The notes below the pieces were generated by a model. It saw nothing but the letters and a program-made list of their open reading frames with translations. It searched no databases and had not been told where the DNA came from. A stretch of DNA of 64,000 nt from Sphaerolaimus hirsutus. Its lineage: Eukaryota; Nematoda; Chromadorea; Monhysterida; Sphaerolaimidae. This document shows, in pieces, positions 2,945-61,525 of this stretch. The number at the start of each line of letters is the position of its first letter. Within the stretch, counting starts at the first letter, position 1. Made by a program: the position numbers and the translations under genes. Location of the stretch: positions 1-64,000 of the forward strand of contig CAXIWS010000702.1 in the NCBI GenBank assembly GCA_964036195.1. Reading direction: 5' to 3'.

Positions 2945-3068
2945 TAGAATAATAAATGTACTACGAAAGCACGCCGAAAGTGGGAGAGAATCCGGCCATT
3001 TAAATGGCATGTATTATTGCGATGTTTAATAAAGTGAATAGGTAGGAAATTTAAATTGAAACACATAC

Positions 3069-3425: not shown

Positions 3426-3691
3426 CTGAAAAATGCCCTTTTTAAATTTCACCTAAAATACTTTTCACCAAAAAATTTCACTAAAAACTGATTAATTTCA
3501 TCCTTAATTCGGTGATGCCAAGGGGGGATGTTATTCAAAGGGGAATTATTTTTTTCTGGAACTTGCACTGTTGCCATCTTGGCAATAATAGTGATAAATT
3601 TATTTTAGGTCCTTAAAGTTTCGAGGGGGTATTTCAAGGAAACATGTATATGTATAACACTTTTTTACCCATCCTCATAAGTACATGTGAG

Positions 3692-4575: not shown

Positions 4576-4595
4576 TTTTTTTGGTGGGGGGCAGT

Positions 4596-5816
4596 TAGGG
4601 TTGGGATGATATATGGGGACTTTCATTCTGAAAGTTCACATATCCAGAGCACACATGAACTTTTGGAAATAAAACTATTTTTTGGACTTGTGAACTTATG
4701 AAATGAAACTCCTGTGGTCTGGGATTAGGGTTCAAACGATATGACTTTTCGATATCGATATTCAATATTTTTTTCTGAAACTCGATATTCGATATCGATA
4801 TGATATGAAACCTCGATATCGATATTCAATATTCGATATTGAAAAATGGTCGATATTTGATATTTCAATATTTTCGGTGTTCGATATTGCAATTTGCTTT
4901 TGGTATAGCAAGGCATATTTCAAGTGGCATATTTTATTTTCATGTGGTTGCACACATCGTTAATCATCTCTTTACTGAGATGTGAATGGTACAAGTGATT
5001 TTAAGAAGGTTTACATCACTCACGTAGTAGAAAAACAAGTAGAAAATGGAAGAGAAACATGATGAATCAAAGTGTATCAGACAAATAACAATTGGTAGAT
5101 ATTACAGTTCATGCTTATAACCTAATTGCTCAAGGGCATGTTGCAAAAAATAGCATATCAGCATTTTCTAGCTTCAAAATTAGCACTCCAACAAAAATTA
5201 CATTATAAATACTGTACTTTTACTCATCAAATACAATACTATAAGCAAATCAGATCAATAATAAATATCTCAAAATGAAAATGATAACTTGATTAAGGGA
5301 CACAATGCAGGTTCGCTATGGCACAATATATCGAAAAAATGGTAGATATTCGATATCTATATTTGATATTTTTTCAAAATTTTCGATATCGATATTCGAT
5401 ATTTTTTCAAAATTTTCGATATCGATATTCGATATTCATTATGAAAAAATTGTCGATATCCGATATTCGATACGATATATCGTTTGAACCCTATCTGGGA
5501 TGGATATGTGAACTTTCGACGTGAAACTTCTGTTTTTCATAGGGGATTGGAGATGGATATGTGAACTTTCGATATGAAAATTGTGATTTTTCTGAAAATC
5601 GGTACCGCTGTATCTCAGGAACGAAATGGACTATAATGCAGATTTTTTTTCTAAAATGTGAAAAACTATACGTGGAGGTCAAATCCACGCTTAACTCGAT
5701 TTTTCTGGATTTGGCGCTTGTGAACTTTTGGAATGGAAGTCCCCATATCGTATCGGATATCGACAATTTTTTCATATCAAATATCAATATCGAAAAGTCA
5801 TACGGTCCCAACCCTA
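4596..5816. mobile_element. Outer hAT-like non-autonomous element (TAGGGTTGGGA ends)
   Basis: The left end TAGGGTTGGGATGATAT and the right end GGTCCCAACCCTA are inverted. The flanks are GGGGCAGT (4588-4595) and GAGGCAGT (5817-5824), a 7-of-8 match. An 8-bp TSD with TAGGG-type ends fits the hAT superfamily. No transposase is encoded. A second hAT-like element (4736-5493) is nested in it. Confidence 0.75.
4736..5493. mobile_element. hAT-like MITE carrying ATCGATATCGA satellite
   Basis: The TIR is TAGGGTTCAAACGATAT, and the exact 8-bp TSD TCTGGGAT lies at 4728-4735 and 5494-5501. Each side holds an array of TCGATATCGATATTC-type repeats; the centre (about 4880-5310) is unique. The core is homologous, in inverted orientation, to that of the element at 12,975-13,821, for example in the stretch around TATACCAAAAGC. 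No coding capacity. The insertion sits inside 4596-5816. Confidence 0.9.
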
Positions 5817-5836
5817 GAGGCAGTGCGATTTCCTGG

Positions 5837-6079
5837 GGGCAGTCCCAAGCCCTGTAAAACGTAAAGTAAAGTGTCAAATGTAAAGTCAAGTGCAAAGTAA
5901 AGTGTCAATTGTCATGACAAAAGTAAAGTATAGTGTCAATTGTCATGCAAAGTTCAATAATAAAATCTTTTCTTTTTTTTTGTTTTGATTGACACTTTAC
6001 TTTACATTTGACACTTTACTTTACACTTTACTTTACATTTGACACTTTACTTTACACTTTACAGGGCTTGGGACTGCCA
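5837..6079. mobile_element. MITE with CAGTCCCAAGCCCTGTAAA TIRs
   Basis: The ends GGGCAGTCCCAAGCCCTGTA and TACAGGGCTTGGGACTGCCA are inverted repeats, flanked by CCTGG at 5832-5836 and 6080-6084. The interior is tandem TTTACTTTACA and GTGTCAA motifs on both strands, so the whole element can fold as a hairpin. Same family as 3088-3286. The next transposon's TSD begins one base after it ends. Confidence 0.8.
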
Positions 6080-6092
6080 CCTGGATGGTGTC

Positions 6093-6758
6093 TAGGGTTG
6101 GAAAAAATCGATTTTTTTTAACGTTTCCGATTTAAAAAAAATAAAAATCGCTGGGGTCAAAATTGGCCCCAATTCTTGCTAAAATCACCTCTAAAGGTGA
6201 TTAAAGCCATATAAACTGATAGGCGATGAACACTTATGCTTTCTGTGGTAATACAAGTGCTGTAGAGCTTTAGAAAAGCTTGAAAGTCAGTTATTTTTAA
6301 GTTTAAAAGTAATTAACTAGTTATATTTGCCGCGTGAATTACATATCATCGACCATTTGTGATTTTGTTTGCAGAAATTGCACGTTCTTGTTGAGAACAA
6401 AATATAAACATTTGGGAGTGAACGTGAATGCATTGGCATAAATATTTGATTTTAAAACACATAGCACAACTATGAATAATTTCCGAAATGATTCACAGCC
6501 TACCTTACATGCTTGAAAGTACGCAGAAATGGGTGCTACACCACAAAATTAGTTGTAAAAGAAATGAAACAAGCAAATGATGGATTGCCTACATGAAAAT
6601 GCATGCTTGCGCACAAAATTTTTGCATTTTACCTAGTGCATGATTACCAAAATTTTTCGCCAGCGATTTTTTTTTTAAATCGGTACGGGTGCTGCGATTT
6701 AAAAAAAAAAATCAGAATAAAAAAAAAAATCGCTTAAAAACATCGCTTGCCAACCCTA
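6093..6758. mobile_element. hAT-like MITE with AAAAAATCG-type arms
   Basis: The ends are TAGGGTTGGAAAA and GCCAACCCTA, with the exact 8-bp TSD ATGGTGTC at 6085-6092 and 6759-6766. Just inside each end are T/A tracts with CGATTTTTT, and the core (about 6150-6660) is unique AT-rich DNA. No coding capacity. Related by its ends to the elements at 26,634, 29,619 and 57,872. Confidence 0.9.
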
Positions 6759-6766
6759 ATGGTGTC

Positions 6767-7621
6767 AACACTTGAATTTACGGTTCTGGGTTTCCAGTAG
6801 TCAAACTTCTTACCTTAAAGTTTTCTATTAGGGGTCTCCTAGGGGAGGGGGGGGGGGCTGCCCCCCCAAATCCCCCAGCTATCTATCTATCTCGGAGCCC
6901 GGAGGCAAATTTTTGTTCTGCTTTCTGTTAGATGTGTAGTTGTAGTGTGTTGAGCAACTTTGGTTTATGAAATGACTGGCATTTAAATTGTTCAAAAGAC
7001 ACATTTGTAGTACGTTCTTTTACCTGGGAAAAAAGTGTTTTTTCTTCAAAACCAAATATTGGTTTCGGCATTCTCGTTTTAAATACTGGCTTCGATCTTC
7101 GCTTTGAAAAACGTTAGAAACCTGTCAAAAACTCCGCTATCGCTCTATCCGCTATCGAGTCACAATTTTTAGCTACTACCCGCTGAAACCAACTCATCCG
7201 AAATCCCTCAACTATGCATTTGCAACTCTGGAGCGATTTTTGAGAATTTTGCTCTTTTTTTTCGCTAAAAATCTCTGATTTTCATCTTATAGTTTATAGT
7301 TTTTCACCTTCAACATCGCGATTTTCAGTTATATGTGGCTATATACCTATTTTTAGCTATTTTTGACCTATTTTGGCTACTTTAATCCATTTTAGTGGTT
7401 TCCCACGTTTCTGCCTCAAATAAGCCTTGAGAAGACCTATACCTAAACCTGTACCTATACCTTCAAAAACCGTATATATTTTGCCCCGCCCCCCCCCCCC
7501 CACCCCCACCAAAAAAATATTCAGCTATTTATCTATTTCTCCATAGGAGCGATTTGCTATCTATCCAACCCCCCGCAGGGTCGAAATCTTGGAGACCCCT
7601 GCCGCGAACATTGTATCGTTA
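6767..7621. other. Intergenic DNA, no gene seen
   Basis: No supported gene. It contains G/C homopolymer runs (about 6840-6880 and 7485-7505). Near 7550-7605 a dispersed motif, AGCGATTTGCTATCTATCC followed by CGCAGGGTCGAAATC, recurs in part near 24,780, 27,310 and 63,900. This marks an unclassified repeat. Confidence 0.4.
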
Positions 7622-7629
7622 GATGGGTG

Positions 7630-7966
7630 CAGGGACGTAGCCAGGATTTTTGAGCAGGGGGGAGGTCGGATTGTATACGGAGCCCGGCGAACGGGGGGGG
7701 GGGGGCGACGCCCCCCCTTTTTTTTCCTCTGCAGTATGGGAATGGCGCCATGGCGCTTGCGCCATTCGTAGACGTAACGTCATGGCGCCACTGGCGCTGG
7801 CATCGGCGCCAAAACAGCTGTATGTCTGTATCCTACAGGCATATACAGCGACACGGACAGGAATTTAGGCTTTTTAGTGGCTTTGAGGCCGCGCATACTT
7901 GTCAACTGGAAATATATGTTATGTGACGGTAAAATGCGTGCCCCCCCCCCCCTGGCTACGTCCTTG
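7630..7966. mobile_element. hAT-like MITE (CAGGGACGTAGCCAGG ends)
   Basis: The TIRs are CAGGGACGTAGCCAGG and CCTGGCTACGTCCTTG, with the exact 8-bp TSD GATGGGTG at 7622-7629 and 7967-7974. These are typical hAT-type ends. The interior has G and C runs and a GGCGCCATGGCGC block (about 7743-7812). No coding capacity. Confidence 0.9.
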
Positions 7967-8002
7967 GATGGGTGGTAAGCCGGTAAATGTTATGGTCACT
8001 AG

Positions 8003-8400
8003 CAAGGACGTATCCAGGGGGGGGGGGCTGCCGAAATTTCGTCCCCATGCATTGTATTTTCAGCGGATCGGTCCCTGTAAACCAATATCCTTGGAAATAA
8101 ACACATTTTTGCGACTTTCGCTGTATATTTATGTATATTTACACAGCGTATATTTACATAGCGTATTACTATATATTTAAATGTAAATATATTTATGTAT
8201 ATTTACATTTAAATATATAGCGGTTCCTAGCGCTGGCGCCAACGCCAATAGCGCCATGGCGTGGCGCCTTTGTATGGCGCTAGCGTCAAAACGCCTTTTC
8301 GTCCTTACATTTCGTCCTTTCGGCTGAGCCCCCCCCCGTTCGCCAGCCCCCGTAAACAAGCAGCCCCCCCCCCCGCTCAAAAATCCTGGATACGTCCCTG
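8003..8400. mobile_element. hAT-like MITE (CAAGGACGTATCCAGG ends)
   Basis: The TIRs are CAAGGACGTATCCAGG and CCTGGATACGTCCCTG, with the exact 8-bp TSD GTCACTAG at 7995-8002 and 8401-8408. The interior has G/C runs, TATATTTA repeats (8120-8220) and a GGCGCC block (8228-8285). Same family as 7630-7966 and 15,926-16,353. Confidence 0.9.
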
Positions 8401-8443
8401 GTCACTAGCGACGCCACTTAGAACAACACGGGGTAACATTCAG

Positions 8444-8648
8444 TCTCAAAAATGCAGGAAATGCAGCTGCACGTGGAACGAAGTGGCACAGGGCGAAATC
8501 GGTCTGGCCGAGGCGGCACAAGACGCTGGGAAATACTGCGAGTTCCATCTTTTCCATGTTGTGTTGAAACGAGTACCGATTAAAAAAACGCGTCCCCCCA
8601 ACGAGAAAATTTTTTGCCACCTACCTCTGGAGAAGCGATTTGCCATCT
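8444..8648 (+). CDS. Candidate host exon, protein unidentified
   Basis: After AACATTCAG, an acceptable splice acceptor, the plus frame reads SQKCRKCSCTWNEVAQ and goes on through KYCEFHLFHVVLKRV to EKIFCHLPLEKRFAI. It has balanced amino-acid use and several Cys and His residues, unlike the repeats around it. It is squeezed between a hAT-like MITE ending at 8400 and a TA-MITE starting at 8650, so its 3' end may be cut off by the latter. No donor is visible and no family is recognised. The minus frame is also open, so the strand is not certain. Treat as a tentative exon or exon relic. Confidence 0.35.
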
Positions 8649-8649
8649 A

Positions 8650-8816
8650 CCGTATTTCCTCGAAATCCCCCCTGGGGGTTTATTTTTCAGAGTGGAAATT
8701 TTGAGGGGGGTTTTTCGAGGGGGGTTTATTATTTCGTCAGAAATTTTCGTGAATTTGGTAGTAAAGATAACGTGAAAACGTGCCCAAAAGGGGTAATGAA
8801 CGTGATGAAATAGGAT
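8650..8816. mobile_element. Left part of a G-run TA-MITE
   Basis: It starts CCGTATTTCCTCGAAAT after TA, followed by C and G runs and TTTATTATTTCGTCAGAAATT. These features match the left end and interior of the family at 9409-9865 and 60,306-60,757. The copy is interrupted or ended by the hAT-like element at 8817. Confidence 0.55.
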
Positions 8817-9397
8817 TAGGGTTCAAACGGGACCAGTTTTCCGGACCGGGACCGGGACCAAAAATTTTCTACTGTCGGGACCGGGACTGGGGTGTCGGGA
8901 CCGGGACCAGGACCGGGACTGGCCTTTTTCAATTGTCGGGACCGGGACCGGGACTGGGGTGTCGGGACCGGGACCAGGACCGGGACTGGCCTTTTTCAAT
9001 TGTCGGGACCGGGACCGGGACTGGGGTGTCGGGACCGGGACCAGGACCGGGACTGGCCTTTTTCAATTGTCGGGACCGGGACCGGGACTGGGGTGTCTTG
9101 GACTGGGACCGGGATTAATTGACTCACAACTATAGTTAGGAGCAACAGAAAAAAATTGTAGAATGGATGGAAAAAACGTCATTTTTTCCATCCCTTGTCG
9201 GGACCACTGAAAAATTCCGGGACCGGGACTGGGGTGTCGGGACCGGGACCGGGACTGGGGTGTCGGGACCGGGACCGGGACTGGCATTTTGTAATTGTCG
9301 GGACCGGGACCGGGACTGGGGTGTCGGGACCGGGACCGCCCCAGTCCCGACTTTTTGTTGAACCATGTACCGGGACCTCGGTCCCGTTTGAACCCTA
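8817..9397. mobile_element. hAT-like MITE carrying GGGACCGGGAC satellite
   Basis: The TIRs are TAGGGTTCAAACGGGACC and GGTCCCGTTTGAACCCTA, with the exact 8-bp TSD AATAGGAT at 8809-8816 and 9398-9405. The interior is a minisatellite of GGGACCGGGACTGGGGTGTC units, including three near-identical higher-order units of about 67 bp that each end in CTTTTTCAATT (8870-9070). The first 13 bp of the TIR are identical to those of the ATCGAT-carrying elements. Open frames such as RDRDRDW are repeat artefacts. Confidence 0.92.
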
Positions 9398-9408
9398 AAT
9401 AGGATATA

Positions 9409-9865
9409 CCGTATTACCTCCAAATTTCCCCAGAGGGTTTATTATTTCGCCAGCAAAATTTGAGGGGGGGATAATTCGGGGGGGGGGGGGGTCTATTATT
9501 TCGCCAGAAATTTTCGGAAATTCCCCATACGCAGACGTAGAAAAATCAAACAATTACATAGATGTATATGTGTTTATAGGCATATATAACTGTATATACA
9601 CAAAAACCCTTCCCTAACGTCACTTAATCATAAGTTTTAACGTGTGTATTGCATTGTACAGATCGCAAACTGCGGTATTTGTCATTTTACGTTCACGTTA
9701 CACTCAATTTTAGGGGGGTATTTCGAGGAGGGGGGGTTATTATTTCCTCAGCCGAAATTTAGGGGGGTATTTCGAGAGGGGAGTTAATTCAAGGGGGGTT
9801 TATTCAAAGGGGGGGTTAATTCAAGGGGGGTTTATTCAAAGGGGGGGTATTTCGAGGAAATACAG
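9409..9865. mobile_element. G-run TA-MITE (CCGTATTACC ... GGAAATACAG)
   Basis: It runs from CCGTATTACCTCCAAAT to TTTCGAGGAAATACAG, flanked by TA on both sides. The interior has long G runs separated by TATTTCGAG, TTATTATTTC and TTAATTCAA, and a unique core near 9520-9710. TA flanks suit a Tc1/mariner-type mover. The same family at 60,306-60,757 has a recognisable empty site. Confidence 0.7.
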
Positions 9866-9867
9866 TA

Positions 9868-10620
9868 TCCAGCCCTCGCGAGGTTCAAAATTTTGAGACC
9901 TCTGGTTGGGACTGAAGATGGAGAAATACGTCTTCTGATGACTCCATTTGAAAAAATTTTTAAAAGGTTTTTTTTTAACAACGTTTTTATCAAAAGCTCC
10001 CAGATATGGTTGTGAAATCTCTGCAACCGCCGATACAGATTTGTATGCAAAATTGCATCCTTCCGTGCAAAAAGTCTAATTGATAAGAAATACTAGAAAT
10101 TTTATACAACTTTTAAAAAAAAGACAGGATGACAATTGTGTTTTAAAAACGTTCAAAACAACTCCGTCAATCCCTAGAAGTAGCAATCGCTTTTTTGGAA
10201 ACAGTCTTGCATCTTCAGTAAATTTTTTCTTTTTTTAGTTATGCATTTTCCAGGTTTGCGTAGCGTTCTGCTCGAATGGCTGCATGCTTTGAGAAGGCAG
10301 AAATTCTGGTGGTTGAAAAATCTTCCCGCATGAAACCTTGTCAATGACTAAGTTAGAAATATTTGAAATACATATTTGATTTGCTATATTTATGATAATG
10401 GGTTCATTTGTAGTGTAACTCGGGTACTGTTTTTGACTACACGGTCATTTTGGTTTGTTACCGTAATTTTGTAGATTTATTTTATTCTGCGATTCCATTT
10501 GTTTTTTTCTTCATTTTTGTATCGTGATTTTGGAATACATTTACATAATGATAAAAATAATTAAATATGCATTTTGAAAAGTCACTTTAAATGTTTGCTT
10601 GGGCTTTGGTTACTACGGCC
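9868..10620. other. Intergenic DNA, no gene seen
   Basis: No supported gene. Positions 9965-10,010 (AACAACGTTTTTATC, then GCTCCCAGATATG) match the edge and core start of the element at 29,619-30,323, indicating an old fragment of that hAT-like family. Confidence 0.4.
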
Positions 10621-10623
10621 CTC

Positions 10624-10850
10624 CACACACTAGTTGACGCCAAAATTAGCGTCAACTCAGAGTCAACTGGTCAAAAATTCAGTTGACTCTGAGCCATTTA
10701 CAATATGTATCCAAAAAATCCCCTTCTTTCATTCTACATCAATCGACTTCTCAATATTTCTTAATCAACACAGGTAAAAAATCAAAAATAGTTATACTTA
10801 AAAACAGTTGACTCTGAGTTGACGCTAATTTCGGCGTCAACCAGTGTGTG
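10624..10850. mobile_element. MITE with about 45-bp TIRs (GTTGACGC)
   Basis: The left arm CACACACTAGTTGACGCC is mirrored on the right, and the inner GCGTCAACTCAGAGTCAACT is also mirrored. A unique AT-rich loop of about 130 bp lies between. No convincing TSD was found. No coding capacity. Confidence 0.65.
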
Positions 10851-10937
10851 TAGCACCTAACGATATTTCGTTCTATCGTGTATTGTAGTTTGCATATTTT
10901 GTTCGCCTGGGTGGGGCCAAGGGATGTATGTCAGCTA

Positions 10938-11308
10938 GAGATGGAGTGGCGCCAAGGCGTTGCGCCAAATGATTTGGCGCCATGGCGCCATTGGTGCTTG
11001 GCGCCATTTTCTGTGGTGCCTGGCGCGCAATCTTAAAAGGGTGCCACCATTGTTTCAGGTTGAGTTGCGCAAAAGTGATAAAATTTTAAGAGAGCGGTGC
11101 ATTAAAAATCGATTTTATGACTGAAATTTGCTAAATTAGATATCGTTCTACCTATTCTTCAGGTATGTATCTGATGGACATTTGTGGGGATGTGATTGGT
11201 GCGGTGAAACTGTCGGAAAACTTAACCTGGCTTTTTTTCTGTGGTGCGCCTGGCGCCCTTTTTCCAAATGGCGCTCGGCGCCATTTTTCTGGCGCTTTTC
11301 CATCACTA
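10938..11308. mobile_element. GGCGCC-bearing TIR element (TAGAGATGGA ends)
   Basis: The left end is TAGAGATGGAGTGGCGCC and the right end GGCGCTTTTCCATCACTA, roughly inverted. GGCGCC-type repeats line both inner edges, and a unique core (about 11,040-11,240) lies between. Its left edge matches the repeat at 3692. The expected 8-bp TSD is not preserved. Confidence 0.5.
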
Positions 11309-11332
11309 GTGCGGACGTGTGCCGGTGCTCCT

Positions 11333-11396
11333 GTAACCCGGAGCGCATGTAACCCGGAGCGCATGTAACCCGGAGCGCATGTAACCCGGTGCGCAC
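11333..11396 (+). repeat. 16-bp minisatellite, four units
   Basis: Units GTAACCCGGAGCGCAT start at 11,333, 11,349, 11,365 and 11,381; the last is diverged (GTAACCCGGTGCGCAC). It directly precedes a CpG-rich stretch that may be the 5' end of a gene. Confidence 0.85.
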
Positions 11397-11436
11397 GCAG
11401 ACCAGCCACTCATCCGCCCGGCTGCCCTGCTGTGCC

Positions 11437-11481
11437 ATGGACCCGGCCGTGCCCGACGCGGGGCGGAGTCGCCTGCTCAGG
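11437..11481 (+). CDS. Candidate first coding exon of the F-box/LRR-like gene
   Basis: GCCATGG at 11,435 is a strong initiation context in a short CpG-rich island. The frame encodes MDPAVPDAGRSRLLR and reaches AGG|GTCGGT, a possible though weak splice donor in phase 0. The next supported exon on this strand (16,435) also begins in phase 0 and lacks an initiator, so this exon could supply the N-terminus. The intervening 5 kb is filled by nested transposons. There is no transcript evidence and the donor is not consensus, so the link is an inference. Confidence 0.35.
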
Positions 11482-12586
11482 GTCGGTTACCCGCACATTT
11501 CTGTCGCTGCTCTGCAAGTGCTTTGTTTTTACCCACTTGTTTGTGGGTGAATTCTGTTGTTTGTATGGCTCTGCTGCTCTATTCAAAGGTTCTGTGTGGC
11601 ATTTCTGAGTTGCATTATCGTTCGTTTTGGTTAAAGTGAGCGTGTGGCCCGTAGACTTTTCATATTGTCTAATTGCTGTCTAGCAAATGCACTGAACGCA
11701 GTGTTGATATGAGAAACAAGCCTGGAGTCCAAATGTAATATGTCATGCAAACACAACTGCTTAAACGGTTAAATATTTACACGTGAACTAACGATGGCAA
11801 AAAAAGATTCGAAAATATTTTCGAATTTTTTCGGAATTTTCGAATTTTTATTCCACCACTGGAAAAACACTTAAAATTTGATTTTTTTTTAAATTCGAAA
11901 ATTCATAAATTCGAAAATAGTTCTCGAATTTTTCAGGGAATTCAACGAAATAAAACACATTCTTAGGTTCTATGTGCTAAATCGATCGATAATTGATACG
12001 CGGTGCGTCTGGAAAAGTCTATCGAAACAGAAAAAAACGTCAATGAACGTTGAAATGGTATCCATGGCGGACACAGCGCTGGAATCGGGGAAGACATTTT
12101 AGGGGGTGGGTCCACCAAACTTTGTGTCGCCACATTCTGTTGCTGCACTCAACCAAATTGTTTCGTTTCCTTGAATCGTCCCCCAGTCCCAAGAAGGGGG
12201 GGGGTGTCTATTTATAAAAACGTGTTGATTTTACATGGCAGATCTAGCTATTTGACTTTGAAGCTTAATAACTCGGTCATTTCTTGGCCGATTTGGAATA
12301 CTCCAAATGATCTGCAGAACATGTAGATTCCATTTTTGAGGTTGGATTAGTGATGTATAAATTAATTATACAATTTGACCCAGTATTTAAATGTGTAAAA
12401 TAAATTTTTCTGAACATGCCATCATATACTTAATATAAATAAACTGGTGGCACATATAAATGAGAAAACAGGTACCTCATTTTTCACAACAATCTCACAG
12501 GGATACATGCAGCCCAATGTGGCTGCCATTTGTAGTGGGGGTGCCCACAACATTTGTCTACATATATGCCAAGTGGCACCCCATGG

Positions 12587-14090
12587 GCCAGATTTAATAC
12601 TCCCTACAGATTTGTAGGGTAGGGCAGACGGATTTAATACGCCCGACAGATTTTTTAAAGTTTAACCGCATCGACGCACATGCACCGAGAGCAAGGCGGT
12701 TCATAAAATACACGAAACTATCCCTTAAGGTCGCCGATATTGCAATATGACGGTTATCGCTTCGATTTTGGCTCGGAAATCACGATTTCGTCATTTCGTG
12801 GCCGTCTGCCAATTCGTTTTTTATTTTATTTTGTCGGGCAGGTTACTCGCAAAAGTTGCGCTTTTGTACGCTCATGCATGCATTTCTTTCTTGTCGCTGC
12901 CCTCATGGTTTCGGTTGCAGACAGTGAACACTAAAAAAGTGACCCCCTGACTACACAAAAGCGTGACCTATGCGTAGGGTTCAAACGATATATCGTATCG
13001 AATATCGAATATCGGATATCGACCATTTTTTAATATCGAATATCGAATATCGATATCGAAAATATTGAAAAAATATCAAATATCAAATATCGATATTGAA
13101 AATTTTGAAAAAATATCGAATATCGATATCGAATATCGACCATATTTTCGATATATCGAACCTGTATAATGTCCTTAATTAAGTTATTATTTTTGTTTTG
13201 AGATATTTGTGATTAATTTGATTTGCTTATAGTATCTAAGTTGATGAGTAAAAGTAAAGTATTTAATGTCATTTTTGTTGCAGTGCTTACTCCACATTTC
13301 TTGTATTTGCTTTGGCCACATACCTACTGAACTACCTAGCTCAAATTTGAAGCCAGAAAATGCTGATATGCTGCTTTTTCGCAACATGCCCTTAAACAAT
13401 TGGGTTATAAGTATGAATTGTAATATCTACCAATTTTTGTTTGTCTGATACAATTTGATTCATCATGTTTTTTCTTCGATTTTGTCATTCTGACCATTGT
13501 AAACCTTGTTAAAATCAATTGTACTTTTCAGTAAAGAGATAATCAACCATGTTTGCAACCATATGAAAATACAATATGCTGCTTGAAATATGCCTTGCTA
13601 TACCAAAAGCTAAATATTGAATATCAAAAATATTGAAATATCGATATCGAATATCGACCATTTTTTAGTATCGAATATCGAATATCGATATCGAGGGTCC
13701 ATATCGTATCGAATATCGATATCGAAAATTTTGAAAAAATATCGAATATCGATATCGAAAATTTTGAAAAAATATCAAATATCGAATATCGATATCGAAA
13801 AGTGATATCATTTGAACCCTACCTATGCGAGTAACCCGCCCGACAAAATAAAATAAAAAACGAATTGGCAGACGGCCAATAAATGACGAAATCGTGATTT
13901 CCGGGCCAAAATCGAAGTGATATACGTCATATTGCAATATCGGCAACCTTAAGGGATGGTTTCGTATATTTTACGAACCGCCTTGCTCTCGGTGCATGTG
14001 CGTCGATGCGGTTAAACTTTAAAAAATCTGTCGGGCATATTAAATCCGTCTGCCCTACCCTACAAATCTGTAGGGAGTATTAAATCTGGC
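12587..14090. mobile_element. Fold-back transposon with about 280-bp arms
   Basis: The left arm (12,587-about 12,860) and right arm (about 13,838-14,090) are near-perfect inverted complements, beginning GCCAGATTTAATACTCCCTA. The direct repeat CCCATGG flanks it at 12,580-12,586 and 14,091-14,097. The loop (about 110 bp) holds the hAT-like element at 12,975-13,821. The arms give short open frames that are artefacts of the inversion. Confidence 0.8.
12975..13821. mobile_element. hAT-like MITE carrying ATCGATATCGA satellite
   Basis: The ends are TAGGGTTCAAACGATAT and ATATCATTTGAACCCTA, with the exact 8-bp TSD CCTATGCG at 12,967-12,974 and 13,822-13,829. ATATCGAATATCG arrays flank a unique core (about 13,165-13,610) homologous to the core of 4736-5493. 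It is the innermost of a four-level nest. Confidence 0.92.
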
Positions 14091-15708
14091 CCCATGGCAC
14101 CCCCCTGTTTTGCTGCTACAGAATGATGAAGTTTTTTTGCCAATTTTTTCACAGAAAATATAAATGAGAATTTTCAAAAAACCACACAAAATATAGAAAG
14201 TGTGCAGCCATTTTTTGATTTGCTGACAACACAAGTGATGAATACACTTGTGTTGGTGCTTTTTCAAAAAATAAAACTCCTTGTGGCTTGCCAAAAGCCA
14301 TATTTTGACCCGCTGCTCATTTGTGGGTATATTTTGACACCCATTCCACTACCCCCACATAAATATGGCCCCCAATATGCTGACATGTACTTTGAAGCCA
14401 TCTCAACAATCATTTTGAACTTTGTGATAATCCAGATTGTGATTGTAATTGAAAAACCATGATTTTCAACTTTCTGGACATGACCTAGTTGTTTGTCTGG
14501 CCCATTCAAACTAGATATACGGCACATTGCCCATTGGCCCCCATAGATTTTTTACACATAATTAGTGCCCACATTGAATGAGCACAATTATTTTGTGATT
14601 TGTGTTGCGACATTGCAGGTGTCGGACGCGCTGTCACGCAAGTGCCCTCTTTACACAGGGCCGTTTTTATCATTTGCTATAAAAAATACTTGAGTGCTAA
14701 AATGGGGCCCAGGAGCAGCCATATGTTGCCCCTGACACCGAACAAGCCAATTCTGGCCCCCATGTGCTCCATGAATAGCTTGTGATAGTGGATTGTCCAT
14801 TTCTAAAACCTATGTTTTTCTCCAAAAATTTTTTTTCAGTTTGATCAACAACGCCATCATTGTGTGGGGATCCTGGGGGTTCTGAGGGGGTAGAAAAGTT
14901 GTGCATAATTTTTATCTACCAATGTTAAAAAACTTTTTAGTCTAACATGTGCAGAAAAATTTTTATTAAAAATTTAAATTTCATCAGGAACAAAAATTTG
15001 TATGGAATTCTCATTTATATTTTCCAAAAAAAATGTGAAAAAATTTCTTTTCTGCACCAAGGGTCGCCTGAGGTGTGTGCCCACTAGGGTATATTTACTA
15101 AATACTTGGGGGCACCCTCACACAAGATGAGAGCCTAACAGCTTGCATGTGGGATTTGTAAAATACAATTTAGTGATTTTCTCATTTATATTTTCCACCA
15201 GTTTACTGTATATCCTCAAATAAGTCCCCTGGGGGGGTATTTGTTGTCAGTGATTTTTGAGGGGACTTATTCGAGGGTGAGTTATTTGGATCAGACTTAT
15301 TGAAGGATTTATGGTGAATATATAGATGTAAATGTACAACAGAATGGAATGACACAAAAGTAAGGTGGACCCCCACCCCCATAACAGCCACCCACAATTC
15401 CAGCTATGGGTGGACCCGGTCACATTGAGCAATGTGCAGGGATGCACCAAGCACCCATAACTATTTCAACATAACTACTTAACAGCTCAAAGCTCTTAAT
15501 TCAATATCTTTGCAAAAAATTCGAAAAGTATGTAAAAAAATTCGAAACTACCCAAAAAATTTGAAAATTGCCCAAAAAAATTCAAAAATTTGAAAATTCA
15601 TTTTGGAAAAAAAAACACTTAAAAATTTAAATACTTTTTTTCGGAGGGTTTGCCATCGTTAATGCGAACAGAGACGTTAAAATTACTGAACTTTTTCAAT
15701 GTATGTGC

Positions 15709-15847
15709 ACCATATTTCCTCGAAATAACCTCCTCAAAATGGACACTATGAATTCATAAACCTCAAAATACCCCCCTCGTTCAACCTCCCGTCAACTTCT
15801 CACTCTGAAACAGTCACCCCCTGGGGGCATTTCGAGGAAATACTGTA
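15709..15847. mobile_element. Short TIR element of the TTTCCTCGAAATA type
   Basis: The left side CATATTTCCTCGAAATAAC and right side GCATTTCGAGGAAATACTG are inverted and close together, with C-rich runs between. It is a diverged, short relative of the G-run TA-MITEs. A similar remnant (TATATCCTCAAATAAGTCCC) lies near 15,208-15,290. Confidence 0.5.
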
Positions 15848-15925
15848 CATGTGTACGTTGCAAATGTACGCCTACAGGCACGTACCAGTACATATATATG
15901 TATTTACAAAGTACTTGAGTGTATG

Positions 15926-16353
15926 CAGGGCAGTATCCAGGGGGGGGGGGGGCAGGGAGCTCCCCCTTCCCGGGGCGAGACCAGAAAGTGGCCGGAAAAT
16001 GCGATTTTTTAATGTCAGCGTAAAAAAATTTGCGCGCAAACGCGAATTTTTCACCACACATGATGTATTATCATCAAATCATCATCATGTGCCCTAAAAT
16101 CGTTAAAAAAATATACTCAATGGTGTGCTTTTTGCTGTTATTGTATGTATATTTATCTACATATACTGCGTTCCATGGTGCTGGCGCTAACGCCGATGGC
16201 GCCATGGCGTGGCGCCTACTAATGGCGCCAGCGCCATGGCCCCATTCCGCCATTTTGTAGGTAAAATTTGGGGGGGGGGGCTGAGCCGGCCGTTCGCCGG
16301 CCTCCGTAAACAAGCAGCCCCCCCCCCGCTCAAAAATCCTGGATACGTTCCTG
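15926..16353. mobile_element. hAT-like MITE (CAGGGCAGTATCCAGG ends)
   Basis: The ends CAGGGCAGTATCCAGG and CCTGGATACGTTCCTG are inverted. The flanks AGTGTATG and ATTATATG match at 6 of 8. The interior has G/C runs and a GGCGCC block (16,175-16,250). Same family as 7630-7966 and 8003-8400, but older. It ends about 80 bp upstream of the exon at 16,435. Confidence 0.7.
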
Positions 16354-16434
16354 ATTATATGTATTTTTCAATTACCTCTAAGTATGTTTTAACAACTGTG
16401 CATTGGAAGAGCCCAAAGCCCATTATTTATTTAG

Positions 16435-16716
16435 GCATTTATGGTTCCACGGGATATAGTGTTCTACCACTCGCAGCTGGTGGAGTCGCCCACAAGTGTG
16501 CCGCACGTGCTGGAGGCGATTCTACTGTGCGCGTGCCCCGCCCCCCAACAGCTGTGCGCGCTGGTGGCGCCCCTGTGCTCGCGGCTGCGCACCTTCGTGT
16601 ACTCCGAGCCGAGGCTGTGGCGTCAACTGGCAGTTAACGGTTCTCGAAATGGTTATCGAAGGAAGAGCTTTGAAAGCAACATTGATGCATTGGGCCACTT
16701 GTTCCAGCAGCCGAAG
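16435..16716 (+). CDS. F-box-like exon of host gene, left copy
   Basis: The exon begins after TATTTATTTAG and ends at CCGAAG|GTTTGA, both GT-AG compatible, with both boundaries in phase 0. It encodes 94 residues containing VPRDIVFYHSQL, then ACPAPQQLCALVAPLCSRLRTFVYSEPRLWRQL. The pattern (PxxI/V start, C-R pair, closing LWRQL) resembles an F-box, the module that links substrate receptors to SCF ubiquitin ligases. An inverted second copy at 62,167-62,436 has identical boundaries and differs by a 12-bp in-frame indel, which argues for coding constraint. No initiator is present, so an upstream exon (possibly 11,437) is needed. F-box identity is by pattern only. Confidence 0.7.
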
Positions 16717-16996
16717 GTTTGAGGGGGACATTTTGCGAGTGTCTGTGTCTGACTTTAAAATGTGGTTATATTGCCAAATAAGTCCTTGCCAAATGATATG
16801 TGTGCCCCTGCTCACTCTGGTTTTATTTCGTGACAAATTTCGCACTCGACCGTGGTCCTTAAACCCAGTTGCACATAAATACAACCCGCATCTAAGAATG
16901 TATTTCGAGTTATCCCAATATATGCACAAAATGTTTCTCTCACAATCTGCAAATGATTGAATATTCGCAATTTATCGATTGTCATTTTGAACGCAG

Positions 16997-17354
16997 GTGT
17001 GCACAGGGCTGCGGCAATTGAAGTTGGAAAATGTTTCGACGGAAACAAGTCACATGCCGAGGGTCTTTTTCGCCCACCCACTTCCCAACCTGACCGAGCT
17101 GCAGCTGGAAGATTGCCAAATTGGCTGGGACATGTGGCTGTCGCTGGCCGGGGCAACTCCGCACTTGCAGCAGATCACATTGTATTATCTCACACTTGAT
17201 CGCTATGAAAGGTCGTCTGAAGAAGTCCCAGAGAGTGGTCGCTTTTGGCCTGCATTGACAACTGCAAAAATGAGATGCCATGTGGATTTTATGTTGTTTG
17301 TGCTGCGGCAGAGTTGCTCACTGGAAATTTCTGAAATTGTATTTTTACCAGATA
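16997..17354 (+). CDS. Leucine-rich-repeat-like exon of host gene, left copy
   Basis: It follows a 280-bp intron (16,717-16,996) ending in AACGCAG and ends at GATA|GTGAGA, a good donor. It continues the preceding exon in phase 0 as VCTGLRQLKLENV. Two leucine-rich motifs follow: LPNLTELQLEDCQIG and TPHLQQITLYYLTL. An F-box plus LRR order is typical of FBXL substrate receptors. The copy at 61,526-61,886 is 3 bp longer but also open. The exon ends in phase 1, so at least one more exon is expected; none is recognisable before the fold-back element at 17,572. Confidence 0.7.
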
Positions 17355-17571
17355 GTGAGAGGTCTGTTCTTTTACTCGGGCGTTTTGTTTTTCATTAGCG
17401 CAGTTTGTATTTCTTGAAGCTTTTTTGGCACTGCGCCATATCGCCATTAGTGTTTGGCGCTCGTGTTGGTGCAATTCCACTCAGGTACACATTACCATTG
17501 GAGGTTGCTTCCATTGTTTTTGAAACAATGTTGGTGTAAAAGCTTCCATTTGTTCATGTTATTGTGTAATA

Positions 17572-19046
17572 AACACCTTCCCGATCAAGTCCGGCCGCCT
17601 ATTTTTTTTTCACTTCGCAGGCCATATCTCCGGTTGCCGGAGGGGTGGAAAACTAAAACTTGGGTGGTATATAGGCGCAACCCCCCACTACCCCACATGA
17701 ATAAATGGGGCAGCGGCGACTCACTATAGAGGGGGTCGCCATATATGTGAAAAAAGTTTGCAGCGTTTTCACTGTCCCGCACAGGTCCGGCCCCCGGTTG
17801 ATTTCTTACACTGCGGGTCCCGTATCTCCAGCTGTGGGAGGGGTATAGATCTAAAATTTTTGGGGATGTGTCGCCAACACCCCTCCCCTACTATACACTG
17901 GCCAGGCGGTTTTTGGCAACTCACCACAGTGTGGGGTGCAAAGTTTAAAATTTATTAAAATGTTACTGTCCCACACAAGTCCAGCATCCAATTGAATTTC
18001 AAAAAATGGACACTTTTGTGTTGTTTTAACACTAATGTGGTTGACAATGTGAAATAAGCATGAAATATCCTCTAAAAAATATCTTATCCGACCTCAAACT
18101 GGCCACCACATGAACCCCTTCCCCCAAGTGGGTGACAAAAAAATCACTTTTTACAACTTTTTTATTAGACACTTGAACTGCTGGTTTACAATGATTTATA
18201 GAGGAGGGTTAAAGGTTTCAAATTGTGTAAAAAACCTTACCTCAAAAATGCCTTCATAAGAAAATTTGCTGGGGGTGAATTTCAAATTGTAAAAATGACA
18301 TCATTGCAGGAACAAAAATAGGCAAAATTCACAATTTGAAATTCACCCCCGGCAAATTTTCTTATGAAGGCATTTTTGAGGTAAGGTTTTTTACACAATT
18401 TGAAACCTTTAACCCTCCTCTATAAATCATTGTAAACCAGCAGTTCAAGTGTCTGATGAAAAAGTTGTAAAAAGTGATTTTTTTGCCACCCACTTGGGGG
18501 GAGGGGTTCATGTGGTGGGCAGTTTTAGGTTGGATAAGATATTTTTTAGAGGATATTTCATGTTTATTTCACATTGTCAACCACATTAGTGTTAAAACAA
18601 CACAAAAGTGTCCATTTTTTGAAATTCAATTGGATGCTGTACTTGTGTGGGACAGTAACATTTTTATAAATTTTAAACTTTGCACCCCACACTGTGGTGA
18701 GTTGCCAAAGACCGCCTGGCCAGTGTATAGTAGGGGAGGGGTGTTGGCGACACATCCCCAAACTTTTAGATTCATACCCTTCTTACAGGTGGAGGTACGG
18801 CACCCGCAGTGAAAGAAATCAGTGGGGGCCGGACCTGTGTGGGACACTAAAAAAGCTGCAAATTTTTTTTGCACTCGGCGACCCACCCTGTAGGGGGTCG
18901 CCGCAACCCCTTCAATTCATGCGAAGTAGAGGGGGGTTGCGCCAATATCTACCCCAAGTTTCAGCTTCTGGCGCGTCCTAGAACAGGAGATAGGACGTCA
19001 GAAGTAAAATAAAAAATGGGGGGCCGGACTTGATCGGGAAGGTGTT
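17572..19046. mobile_element. Full-length hairpin (fold-back) transposon, TA target
   Basis: The ends AACACCTTCCCGATCAAGTC and GACTTGATCGGGAAGGTGTT are inverted, with TA on both sides. Almost the entire 1475 bp is one long inverted repeat: for example, the segment around 18,160-18,290 is mirrored at 18,330-18,470, and 17,820-18,060 at 18,540-18,780. The loop near 18,290-18,325 is only a few tens of bases. The right arm of the large duplication keeps an unoccupied site near 61,305-61,312. No transposase. Sister copy at 20,411-21,770. Confidence 0.88.
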
Positions 19047-19204
19047 TATGTGTCATATGCTAGTGTGGTATAAAATATTTGGTCCACTTTGGGAATCAGT
19101 TAGATAGTAAATCGCTTGGCGGAAACTCTCAGTGCATCCAATCTCTCAGCGCATCCAAACTCTCAGCGCATCCAAACTCCCAGCGCACGCATGCATCCTG
19201 TGGT

Positions 19205-20283
19205 TAGGGTTCAAACGGGATTGACTTTTCGGGATCGGGATCGGGATTCACTTTTCGAGATTTCGGGATCGGGATCGGGATCGGGATTGGGGTTTCGGGA
19301 TCGGGATCGGGATTGGTTTTTTGAGATTTCGGGATCGGGATCGGGATTGGCCGGGATTGGGGTCACGGGATCGGGATCGGGATTGGGATAGGCATTTTTC
19401 TGGGATCGGGATTGGGTTCTAGGGATAGAGATTTCGGCCATTTTTCTGGCATTCACAGTTGTTCATAAAGGTCTCAAAACACTGTTGGATGCCAGAAAAG
19501 TGGCATAAAATTGACGCTGGGGGTTTGCATCCACTTTTTCGCATGCAAAAACGTCATTATTTCACTTTTTATAATTTCCACTAATTTTTCCGGGATCGGG
19601 ATCCCGGACTTGGGAGTTTCTCGGGATCGGGATCGGGATTTGAAAATTTTCGGGATCGGGATCGGGATTGGTATTTTTGAGATTTCGGGATCGGGATCGG
19701 GATCGGGATTGGGGTTTCGGGATCGGGATCGGGATTCACTTTTCGAGATTTCGGGATCGGGATCGGGATCGGGATTGGGGTTTCGGGATCGGGATTGGTT
19801 TTTTGAGATTTCGGGATCGGGATCGGGATTGGCCGGGATTGGGGTCACGGGATCGGGATCGGGATTGGGATAGGCATTTTTCTGGGATCGGGATTGGGTT
19901 CTAGGGATAGAGATTTCGGCCATTTTTCTGGCATTCACAGTTGTTCATAAAGGTCTCAAAACACTGTTGGATGCCAGAAAAGTGGCATAAAATTGACGCT
20001 GGGGGTTTGCATCCACTTTTTCGCATGCAAAAACGTCATTATTTCACTTTTTATAATTTCCACTAATTTTTCCGGGATCGGGATCCCGGACTTGGGAGTT
20101 TCTCGGGATCGGGATCGGGATTTGAAAATTTTCGGGATCGGGATCGGGATCGGGATTGGTATTTTTGAGATTTCGGGATCGGGATCGGGATCGGGATTGG
20201 GGTTTCGGGATCGGGATCGGGACTGATAAATCCTGGAATTTCACAGGATCCGTGATCGGGATCGGGATCCCGTTTGAACCCTA
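19205..20283. mobile_element. hAT-like MITE carrying GGGATCGGGAT satellite
   Basis: The ends are TAGGGTTCAAACGGGATTG and CCCGTTTGAACCCTA, with the exact 8-bp TSD CCTGTGGT at 19,197-19,204 and 20,284-20,291. The uninterrupted target occurs once in the right arm at 61,166-61,173. The interior is GGGATCGGGAT arrays around a unique core; core plus arrays are tandemly duplicated with a 482-bp period (GCATTCACAG at 19,449 and 19,931). Open frames reading SGSGSG or RDRDRD are artefacts. Confidence 0.95.
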
Positions 20284-20410
20284 CCTGTGGTGCCTCACCT
20301 CTGCACCGCTAGGCGTCTCTTGACCAATTATGCCGCACTTCCAGCCGTTGAATCACTCAGGCAACCCCCACAGTACCCACCAATGTTATCCAAACATTGT
20401 GCACATTATA

Positions 20411-21770: not shown

Positions 21771-21816
21771 TACATTTTGAAATTTACGCAATGCTTACCC
21801 TGCAACATGCACAGTC

Positions 21817-22020
21817 TAGGGTCCAGACGGGATCTGAATCCCGAATCCCGAAAATTTTTGGGATTTTGTGGTCCTGATCCCGATCCCGCAGCCCCAATCC
21901 CAATCCTGATTCCGAAATCTCAAAATCTCAATCCCGATCCTGGTCCAAAAAAGTTGCAAAACACAATCCCAATCCCGTTCCTGAAACCCCAATCCCGATC
22001 ACGGAAAAAAATCACAATCA
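21817..22020. repeat. GGGATCGGG-type satellite remnant present in both arms
   Basis: It starts TAGGGTCCAGACGGGATCTG and continues with degenerate ATCCCGATCCC repeats. The matching segment is 60,785-61,001 in the other arm, so it predates the duplication. The opposite terminus is not recognisable. Confidence 0.65.
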
Positions 22021-24870: not shown

Positions 24871-25062
24871 TAAAAAATTTGTTTAACAGATGTAAAAAAA
24901 ACTTCTAATGGTAATGTGTATTTGCAATTGCATGCTTGCATGCGAAAGTTGCAAAATGCCTTGTGCCTGAGTGTTATCAATTTTTCCAACACTATTGCAA
25001 ACTGCTGAGACCCTTGCAACTATTTTTTTCAAAGCACTGGTCATCTCTATTTACACCTAGGG

Positions 25063-25213
25063 TTGTGATTGGGACGATATATTGTATCGAATATTGAATA
25101 TCAAACATTTTTTCATATCGAATATCAATATCAAAAATTTTGAAAAATATCGAAAATGGAATATAGACCATTTTTTCGATATTTTTCGATATTCTGATAT
25201 TCTTTTCGACCTA
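25063..25213. repeat. ATCGAT-type satellite remnant
   Basis: It starts TAGGGTTGTGATTGGGACGATA and continues with ATTGAATATC, ATCGAATATC and TTTTTCGATATTTTTCG. The other arm has the same remnant at about 57,065-57,215, so it predates the duplication. No intact right terminus or TSD. Confidence 0.5.
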
Positions 25214-55630: not shown

Positions 55631-56165
55631 GGTGGAAAAACAGAAAATTTAGCCGGAAAATGGGAAAAGGTGGAAAAAACAGAAAATTGGGCAAGAAAAT
55701 GAAAAAAGCCTGGAAAACGAAAATTGAGCCGGAAAAATGGAAAGGGAAATGAAAAAAATATTGTGGCCGGAAAACGGAACCGAAAATGGAACTCAAACTT
55801 TAGTGGCTGGAAAATGGAAGGGAAAACGGAAAAAATTTGTCTTAAGAAAACAGAAATGGAAAACAGAAATTTGACAGCCTAGTTTTGTTCCACCGTTGCA
55901 CTTTTTGTCAACGCGTTATGTTCAAGTTCGTGGATATTGTGTCCCGACATTCTCTTTACATGCAAAAACACTGTGATTAGCAAAATATAATTTTGTAGGT
56001 GTAAATAGGGTTGAGACAATATGACTTTTCGATATCGATATTCGATATTTTTTTCTGAAACTCGATATTCGATATCAATATGATATTCGATATTAAATAT
56101 GAAAATATGCTCGATATTCGATATCGATATTTCGATAGTTTCAATATTTCGATATTTTCATGCAG
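55631..56165. repeat. Satellite remnants: GGAAAACGG then ATCGAT type
   Basis: 55,631-55,881 is GGAAAATGGGAAAA-type repeat ending TTTGACAGCCTA, the right end of the GGAAAACGG hAT-like family. 56,006-56,165 starts TAGGGTTGAGACAATATGAC and holds TCGATATCGATATTCG repeats, a fragment of the ATCGAT family. Neither has both ends. Confidence 0.6.
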
Positions 56166-56570
56166 ATGGGGCACATTGTGTTTCCATTTGGTCACAAACA
56201 TGGTTGATCATATTTTTCAATGAGTCTCGCAACAGTCAAAATGAGAGGATGAAATGAGAACAGGATTAATCTAATTTTATCAGGTGGAAAATTATTCTGC
56301 AGACATTTACATTTCATACTTGTAACTAGGGGTGGCTGGCTTTTTACATTTGAATGGTTGTTGTTTAAAAAGACTGCTAAAATTTTTTTAGCCACATTTT
56401 GGTGAAATTGTTTCCTTGTGATGCAGTTTCCTTTGTTAATAGCTTGTATTTTGTGGGGGTGTGTATACATTTCCCTTCATATAATTACTACTGTTGATAG
56501 CTCAATGAAAAATGGCATGCTATTTACATGAGATATTACTTTGTGCATTCAAAAGCATACACCTGTTAAG

Positions 56571-57019
56571 CCGGATTTACAGCTCAGCGGCATATGACGT
56601 GACATGATGACGTCGTAAACTTGATCACATCAAAATAGACAAAGGTACAGCATTGAAATTTCATGATTAGATAGTTCTAGTTCTAGTAATTGTGTGTTCT
56701 AGTTCTAGTAATTGTGTGTAATGTCCCAAAAAAAATTTATAAAATAATCATTATTTAAGTAGTTATTAATTTAACATCAAAATTTGTTGGTGACGTAAAA
56801 TGTTTGACGTAAAATGTTGATGTAGAATGTGTAAATTTTGACGTAAAATTAATAACTTATTAAATAATAATTATTTTCTTCATTTTTTAGGACATTACAC
56901 ACAATTACTAGAACTATCAAATTCTGAAATTTCAACGCTGTACCTATGTCTCTTTTGATGTAATCAATATTATGACGTCATCATTTCAAGTCAAACGCCG
57001 CTGAGCTGTAATTCCGGCT
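56571..57019. repeat. Fold-back at the inner edge of the inverted duplication
   Basis: CCGGATTTACAGCTCAGCGG (56,571) is mirrored by CCGCTGAGCTGTAATTCCGG (ending 57,019), with arms of about 170-190 bp and a short AT-rich loop with TGACGTAAAAT repeats. The right half also matches the left arm at 25,260-25,434. A 25-bp direct duplication of TTCTAGTAATTGTGTG lies near 56,678-56,720. Confidence 0.7.
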
Positions 57020-57512
57020 ATATGGCTGCAGCATCCAATTTTTGTTGGCTTCGCCCATTTATTATGCGATCAAAAATAGGTCAAAAAGAATATCAGAATA
57101 TCGAAAAAATGGTCGATATTCGATATTTTTCAAAATTTTCCATATAAATATTCGATATGAAAAAATGGTCGATATCTGATATTCAATACGATCATCCCAA
57201 TCCCAACCCTAGGTGTAAAAAGAGATGACCAGTGCTTTTTAAAGTCGCTTTAAAAAAATAGTTGCAAGGGTCTCAGCAGTTTGCAAAAGTGCTGGAAAAA
57301 TTGATAACACTCAAGCACAAGTAGGGTGTCAAATAATTTTTTTTACGGAAAACAGAAAACGGAAAGGTAAAAATATTTCACTTTACGGAAAACGGAAAAC
57401 GGAAAGGTAAAAAAAAAATTTCTGCCGGAAAACAGAAAACGGAAAAATGAAATGCCGGAAAACGGAAAGCAAAATTTTCACGGAAACGGAAAAATCATCA
57501 AAAAGTAGCCAT

Positions 57513-61001: not shown

Positions 61002-61525
61002 GACTGTGCATGCTGCAGGGTAAGCATTGCGTAAATTTCGAAATGTTAAATGTGCACAATGTTTGGATAACATTGGTGGGTACTGTGGGGGTTGCCTGAG
61101 TGATTCAACGGCTGGAAGTGCGGGCATGATTGGTCAAGAGACGCCTAGCGGTGCAGAGGTGAGGCACCACAGGATGCATGCATGCGCTGAGAGTTTGGAT
61201 GCGCTGAGAGATTGGATGCGCTGAGAGTTTCCGCCAAGCGATTTACTATCTAACTGATTCCCAAAGTGGACCAAATATTTTATACCACACTAGCATATGA
61301 CACATATTAATTACACAATAACATGAACAAATGGAAACTTTTACACCAACATTGTTTCAAAAACAATGGAAACAACCTCCAGTGGTAATGTGTACCTGAG
61401 TGGAATTGCACCAACACGAGCGCCAAACACTAATGGCGATATGGCGCAGTGCCAAGAAAGCTTCAAGAAATACAAACTGCGCTAATGAAAAACAAAACGC
61501 CCGAGTAAAAGAACGGACCTCTCAC

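Follow-up and report, generated by a model that had tools for sequence, protein, structure and literature searches.

The first 64,000 bp of contig CAXIWS010000702.1 of the nematode Sphaerolaimus hirsutus (GenBank assembly GCA_964036195.1, forward strand; hereafter, the window) contain four short non-autonomous transposons of the hAT superfamily, which share the terminal tip TAGGGTTCAAACG and differ in the hexamer word repeated behind it. Three families can be distinguished by this word: A (CGGGAC), B (CGGGAT), and C (CGATAT). We consider it fairly probable that the hexamer arrays are the subterminal repeats (STRs) bound by the transposase, and that they change in concert and largely independently of the tip. 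That is, the internal repeats are probably transposase docking sites and not passenger satellites.

In the window, the exact tip is found on the plus strand at the left end of all four elements and on the minus strand at the right end of elements 1, 2, and 4; the right tip of element 3 (13821) carries one mismatch (Table 1). When up to two mismatches are allowed, the window has 10 matches to the tip, against a mean of 1.48 and a maximum of 6 in 100 shuffles. The 8-bp target site duplications (TSDs) are exact in all four elements. An earlier reading of the window, made from its letters alone (the sequence-only reading), had described four elements with a shared terminus and 8-bp TSDs, and this description holds, with the first element starting at 4726 and not at 4736. 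Furthermore, apart from two substitutions and gaps of 17 bp and 1 bp, the joined flanks of element 4 align without a break to a paralogous empty site. Joined flanks match across the junction for 16 of the 55 elements of the window and of the sample described below, a count in which element 4 alone was inspected base by base and some other matches may be ordinary repeats. The recurrence of the element 4 flanks near 61 kb suggests a larger repeat family, and, by eye, long inverted repeats starting with AAACACCTTCCCG lie on both sides of the element (17570-19050 and 20400-21775).

The tip is abundant in the 348-Mb genome, with 15,514 exact copies (7752 + 7762) versus 5 + 3 for the reversed-pattern control. 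The hexamer that follows it is word A in 2549 cases, word B in 8581, and word C in 3241, for a total of 14,371 of the 15,514 tips (92.6%), and the 17-mer controls gave 0. Pairs of tips were studied in a sample that combines the window with 50 loci surrounding the first 100 places listed for contig C1; it is non-random, as it covers the start of one contig. It includes 108 exact tips, 102 followed by one of the three words and the remaining six by one-base variants of word A or B. Among the 35 adjacent convergent pairs of exact tips less than 3 kb apart, the TSDs are exact in 27, have one mismatch in three, two mismatches in two, and four to six in three; with the comparison shifted by 8 or 16 bp, none of the 35 pairs shows two mismatches or fewer. 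The sequence-only reading had proposed such a survey of tip pairs, and had considered that a lack of TSDs at most other copies would speak against it; exact TSDs are present in 27 of the 35 pairs. The elements of the sample are 100-1389 bp long (the script limit was 1600 bp, and a 1468-bp row is a B shell holding a nested element), and the many copies without intact transposase resemble miniature inverted-repeat transposable elements (MITEs). One hAT-type family of mobile shells with 8-bp TSDs and different short-period interiors, spread genome-wide, is borne out.

The two ends of an element have different layouts. In all 35 sampled pairs, one end is of the type that we call g3 and the other is not. 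The g3 end is formed by the tip, one word, (T)GACTTTT or CAGTTTTT, and further words; in the consensus of the g5 end, the tip is followed by a palindrome of the family word. The spacer TGACTTTT is common to B and C. The same word is present at both ends in 32 of the 32 classified pairs, with three of the 35 not classifiable. When each element is assigned to the family of its commonest word, A elements hold 275 A, three B, and one C words, B elements hold 705 B, 19 A, and one C words, and C elements hold 523 C words and no others. In register, one to three bases separate the three words. The end consensuses and the palindrome counts are based on elements longer than 130 bp.

The sequence-only reading had noticed that different arrays follow the same terminus, which stands, and had taken the shared part to be 13 bp; the constant tip is really 11 bp, and the last CG of the 13-bp string opens the first hexamer in A, B, and C. 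The arrays belong to the element end, since they start inside the terminus and their layout is alike in the three families. The clearest word change is seen between the g3 consensuses of B and C, which over 43 columns differ by eight substitutions, all eight at hexamer positions 3-4 of four words, in an alignment that also has two 1-bp indels, placed by eye. As for the cores, the sequence-only reading had held that homologous cores with point changes in the repeats would count against it, and this pattern is present in part: the C cores and one A core share the last transposase exon (see below), stretches of 24-90 bp match at 71-92% between some A and B cores (best E, 1.6e-4), and the B and C g3 ends differ as just described; the cores are not all alike. 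One locus, L046:1546-3013, consists of a B shell in which a C-type element is nested, and the script mislabeled it C. It is the source of the B-to-C core matches and was excluded from the run-length test, the end consensus, the word and palindrome counts, and the relic count, which refers to 16 C elements. A core match between A and C (L011/L069; 76%, 95 bp) appeared by eye to be a shared GGCGCC-type repeat and was not used as evidence.

These results bear on the possibility that one pair of hAT ends repeatedly captures and spreads unrelated satellites, as in the interchangeable cargo of the sequence-only reading. Different arrays do lie behind the same tip, and satellite-bearing MITEs are known, according to the available part of PMC9659126. 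However, three words cover 92.6% of the tips, the six sampled tips that lack these words continue with single-base variants of A or B, the words are one to three bases apart in register, and the end layouts are alike. The start of the arrays inside the terminus and the presence of one word at both ends of 32 of 32 pairs also count against the cargo claim, as does the position of the arrays. Indeed, all 14 window clusters of at least three words lie in or against a hAT-type tip, two of these tips being decayed (21817 and 61001), and none of these clusters is free-standing; the count refers to the window, where 31 smaller groups of one or two words lie elsewhere, outside the count.

Long shells do not speak for recruitment either: all four that were opened, as candidate autonomous copies or cargo shells, look like interrupted or duplicated ordinary elements. 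In L022:2516-6856, the left part is duplicated and one frame weakly resembles PIF/Harbinger (Pfam E 0.05, under the cut-off), L087/L067 combines the duplication of a C element with a nested GGCGCC hAT, and L089 carries an insert on which no class was put. In L090, an A element is split at an A/T site by an insert (515-5386) that we take to be Helitron-like because it begins with TC, ends with CTAG, and is inserted at an A/T site, as is typical of Helitrons. This insert has tandem repeats of 116, 30, and 27 bp, and one 21-mer of the 116-bp repeat occurs 5840 times in the genome (2909 + 2931). Satellite growth local to a shell is real, because the whole cores of element 4 (core and arrays, with a 482-bp period and 2.1 copies) and of L017 are tandemly duplicated. 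Overall, we regard satellite recruitment as very unlikely, and recruited cargo is rejected as a general explanation.

The reading of the arrays as binding sites is also suggested by the palindrome that adjoins the tip at the g5 end. Its consensus is CGGGACCGCGGTCCCG in A, CGGGATCCCGATCCCG in B, and ACGATATATCGT in C, with arms of 8, 7, and 6, respectively; in the g3 consensus, the arm within bp 10-30 is 2. On inspection, B and C are distinguished by a joint change of both arms at two pairs, and A and B by a joint change at one pair. The mean best arm per copy in A, B, and C is 5.5, 6.2, and 6.0 at g5, 3.0, 2.1, and 3.9 at g3, and 3.3, 3.1, and 3.6 in the element interior. Arms of at least 5 are present in 20 of 23 B copies, and arms of 6 in 16 of 16 C copies. 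Similar structures occur in other families: 18 of the 31 other hAT-type elements of the window and the sample have arms of at least 6 within bp 9-36 of a tip. Palindromes were found in the TAGGGTGTCAA tip group (CAAAAACTTTTTG and AAAAAAATTTTTTT), in the TAGTGATG tip group with word GGCGCC (AGCGCCATGGCGCT), and in the TAGGGTTGG tip group (AAAAAATCGATTTTTT and AAAAAAAAACGTTTTTTTTT), and two elements with the CAGAGTTG tip, L062 and L081, have AAACGTATTTACGTTT and AAGTGTATTTACACTT, with two both-arm changes. For the 11 palindrome forms listed, the center falls between bp 16.5 and 19.5, in a search whose range confines centers to the middle of bp 9-36.

Tip and word can also be found in other combinations. 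The TAGGGTTNNNACGATAT pattern occurs 2508 + 2509 times in the genome, versus 3241 with CAA. In the first 100 listed places, the three variable bases are CAA in 57, GGG in 29, CGA in 9, and others in 5, and the 35 close pairs are CAA-CAA (19), GGG-GGG (12), and CAA with CGA (4), with no pair of GGG with CAA. One element with the GGG tip at both ends (L046:1871-2674; TSD ATTACCAT) has a g3 side 78% identical to a canonical C element over 259 bp. Word C behind different tips is present in the window as well (Table 1).

A mechanism can be proposed for this pattern. A hAT transposase would read the hexamer STRs through its N-terminal BED finger, and these repeats would have expanded to fill much of the element. 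After a shift in the specificity of a transposase lineage, array turnover and selection could replace the word at every site, including the two arms of the palindrome, and the 11-bp tip, read by the catalytic core, would remain unchanged. If the tip stayed constant, tip and word would therefore evolve as two separable parts of one address: a slow tip for the catalytic core and a fast word for the BED finger, rewritten in concert. The resulting families would be combinatorial, with one tip carrying three words and one word carrying at least two tips, each combination being mobilized as its own family. We put forward this two-part address tentatively, as a plausible proposal that falls somewhat short of probable. 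Because neither an autonomous copy nor a BED domain could be tied to the families, we infer the binding of the hexamer by a BED finger, and transposase and word may have coevolved.

Several results weigh against this interpretation of the arrays. Only the B-C comparison is clean, because A, when aligned without gaps, differs from B at 16 of 43 columns (spacer and one-base shift of the word register). B lacks the innermost palindrome pair of A, the A arms are uneven (7-8 in six of 13 copies and 3-4 in seven of 13), and the C g3 end has a palindrome of its own (TCGATATCGA, bp 24-33). The C palindrome taken alone is weak versus shuffles (p = 0.039). In only 14 of the 31 other hAT-type elements do 5% or less of the element's own interior stretches equal the tip-adjacent palindrome, and in the TAGGGTGTCAA group the palindromes do not contain the group word ACGGAAA and the five copies with the A/T palindrome have arms of 7, 6, 4, 4, and 4. 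Ten of 13 palindrome representatives have p < 0.05 versus shuffles (the other three are CAGGGTTGG, CAGGGGTCTCC, and CAGGGACG), with a combined p of 5e-14; both figures are too strong, because the representatives were picked after the palindrome survey of the 31 elements and the combined p treats related families as independent. Finally, the sampled B cores gave no transposase match, the 150 of 390 candidates scored with the C fragment yielded no autonomous copy of A, B, or C, and none of the eight zf-BED matches in the genome coincides with a listed hAT place.

The arrays could also be the product of neutral microsatellite turnover, without any binding role: slippage and unequal exchange would homogenize whichever hexamer a shell happens to hold, and a few master copies would spread the result. 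The copy number of the arrays does vary, the core duplications of element 4 and L017 fit this account, and in B the hexamer run lengths co-vary within elements (F 4.1, 0/2000 permutations, 22 elements). However, the B co-variation could also reflect age or subfamily, and co-variation is weak in A (35/2000, 13 elements) and nil in C (1905/2000, 16 elements), in a test that excluded elements with fewer than four runs. Under neutral turnover, one would not expect a single word to occupy the two ends of all 32 classified pairs, a one-sided palindrome to be rebuilt from the new word, or other tip families to have a similar architecture. We consider neutral turnover rather unlikely. CpG methylation gating, conceivable as the words contain CG, was discarded: the sampled C1 loci are not CpG-depleted (observed/expected 0.97; window 0.77), and by eye the few altered words among the intact ones show no excess of CpG transitions.

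The mobility of the elements and their hAT identity are well supported. We found 8-bp TSDs, the class to which Hermes belongs, short terminal inverted repeats (TIRs) with the hAT-type tip TAGGGTTCAAA at both ends, relics of the dimerization region (in C and in one A element), and subterminal hexamers at both ends; in Ac, the subterminal motif is AAACGG. A genome search with PF05699 (hAT dimerization) gave 28 matches. Three elements, L066, L067/L068 (one element), and L069, have the match between C-type ends, with TSDs imperfect or absent, and L070 and L081 have C-type tips close by that do not enclose it. The C transposase fragment matches PF05699 (E 2e-11) and Hermes transposase chains (E 6e-6). 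By tblastn, a broken last hAT transposase exon was detected in 13 of 16 sampled C elements, with E at or below 0.004 in 12 and 0.21 in the other; elements 1 and 3 of the window are among the 13. The exon was also detected in one of 13 A cores (L041; 50% identity over 30 residues, E 1e-4), in the same place and orientation as in C.

This shared relic is relevant to the idea that A, B, and C are separate hAT lineages with coincidentally the same tip. The cores are only partly shared and hAT tips are alike, as in the other hAT families of the genome sequence examined (TAGGGTTGG and TAGGGTGTC). Nevertheless, convergence would have to account for identical 11-bp tips plus CG, the TGACTTTT spacer common to B and C, the combination of a g3 end with an end of another kind in all 35 pairs, and the same relic placement in C and one A element; we judge it very unlikely.

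The sequence-only reading had expected an autonomous hAT with the same ends, and none could be tied to A, B, or C. The longest open frame among 88 C-fragment matches is 161 amino acids (150 of 390 candidates scored), and no intact gene was found among them; the three families thus look like deletion derivatives, with a helper that is elsewhere, lost, or unrecognized. Of the zf-BED matches, seven of the eight lie on C1 between 7.47 and 7.68 Mb and six within 23 kb (C1:7466186-7488779), in what resembles a tandem gene cluster; a word-C tip at 7488981 lies some 200 bp away from one of these matches.

Table 1. Elements, ends, and transposase relics of the three-word hAT group in the window
Feature	Position	Strand	Details
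Element 1, word C (CGATAT)	4718..5501 including TSDs, body 4726-5493	+	TSD TCTGGGAT on both sides
Element 1, left end			g3-type (TGACTTTT)
Element 2, word A (CGGGAC)	8809..9405 including TSDs, body 8817-9397	+	TSD AATAGGAT
Element 3, word C (CGATAT)	12967..13829 including TSDs, body 12975-13821	-	TSD CCTATGCG; opposite orientation to element 1
Element 4, word B (CGGGAT)	19197..20291 including TSDs, body 19205-20283	+	TSD CCTGTGGT
Paralogous empty site of element 4	61049..61298	-	One copy of CCTGTGGT
Related element, word C, other tips TAGGGTTGAGAC / TAGGGTTGGGAT	56006..57211	+	TSD GGTGTAAA
g5-type end, word C	25057..25192	+	Different tip TAGGGTTGTGATTGGGACGATAT
g3-type end, word C	5735..5814	-	Different tip TAGGGTTGGGACCGTATGACTTTTCGATAT
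Decayed tip TAGGGTCCAGACG with word B array	21817..21997	+
Relic of last hAT transposase exon, element 1 core	5108..5177	-	tblastn E 7.6e-4
Relic of last hAT transposase exon (dimerization region), element 3 core, two pieces	13308..13417	+	tblastn E 1.4e-5

Other hAT-type elements are present in the window. A second large group, with tip TAGGGTGTCAA and word ACGGAAA, is represented at 57322-59180 with an exact TSD, and this copy holds a nested 126-bp TAGGGTTGG element (57872-57997); TAGGGTGTCAA tips are also found at 22510 (plus strand) and 23948 (minus strand), and no matching TSD was seen for that pair. Relatives of this group with hAT dimerization matches are L059, L060, L064, L078-L080, L083, and L086. 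The element at 6093-6758 has TSD ATGGTGTC, tip TAGGGTTGG, and the 16-bp palindrome AAAAAATCGATTTTTT beside one tip. Two elements with tip CA(G/A)GGACGTA (7630-7966 and 8003-8400) have exact 8-bp TSDs and no clear word array or palindrome. The region 16460-17360 looks, by eye, like exons of a candidate F-box/leucine-rich-repeat gene.

It is an open question, akin to the coevolution of transcription factors and their sites, how a transposase can change together with dozens of binding sites without loss of function. Here, a single genome offers thousands of natural copies in which the same sites exist in alternative states; the tip serves as an internal control, and the BED pair of Hermes offers a structure-based prediction for comparison. 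The satellite-spread account gives way to one that is simpler and can be tested. Neither the tip nor the array strings had a match among 5.39 million open-access papers, and the concerted-word pattern is undescribed in the titles and abstract beginnings of open-access works on hAT subterminal repeats, MITEs, minisatellites, coevolution, and palindromes, which is no proof of novelty.

Hermes of the housefly is one of the closest known systems. According to the available part of PMC10368747, its two BED domains bind a quasi-palindromic STR1/STR2 pair (LE11-27, central bp 19), its STRs cluster at the tips and are arranged asymmetrically between the two ends, and about 220 bp of each end is required in cells. 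On that basis, our elements resemble Hermes in the short TIR, the many short STRs at both ends, their asymmetry, the homologous dimerization region, and a palindromic repeat pair beside the TIR of one end, near the BED-pair position. They differ from it in that the Hermes STR, AAG(T/C), is scattered, with 17 and 14 copies, whereas here dense hexamer arrays (up to dozens of words per element) fill non-autonomous elements and the word differs among families with a common tip.

STRs at both ends are shared with Tgf2/Tol2 and Ac/Ds. In the part of PMC4890040 available, STRs are a defining hAT feature, and Tgf2 has a bipartite recognition in which the transposase binds STRs more strongly than TIRs; word switching behind a constant tip is not described for these systems in that text. 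Tandem repeats inside short non-autonomous DNA transposons are also known from satellites riding on MITEs (Xstir, miDNA4, lepidopteran (GTCY)n, and bivalve HindIII/BIV160), which the available text of PMC9659126 presents as hitch-hikers or satellite seeds, unlike the transposase-site layout seen here. Helitrons and DINEs with central tandem repeats are likewise mobile elements with a satellite interior; however, the Helitron-like insert of L090, which lies in an A shell, is not part of the hAT shell and has no TSD. The elements are of a known kind, with a clear pattern that is undescribed in the literature searched: the concerted change of the family word, including the one-sided palindrome next to the tip, behind a constant tip.

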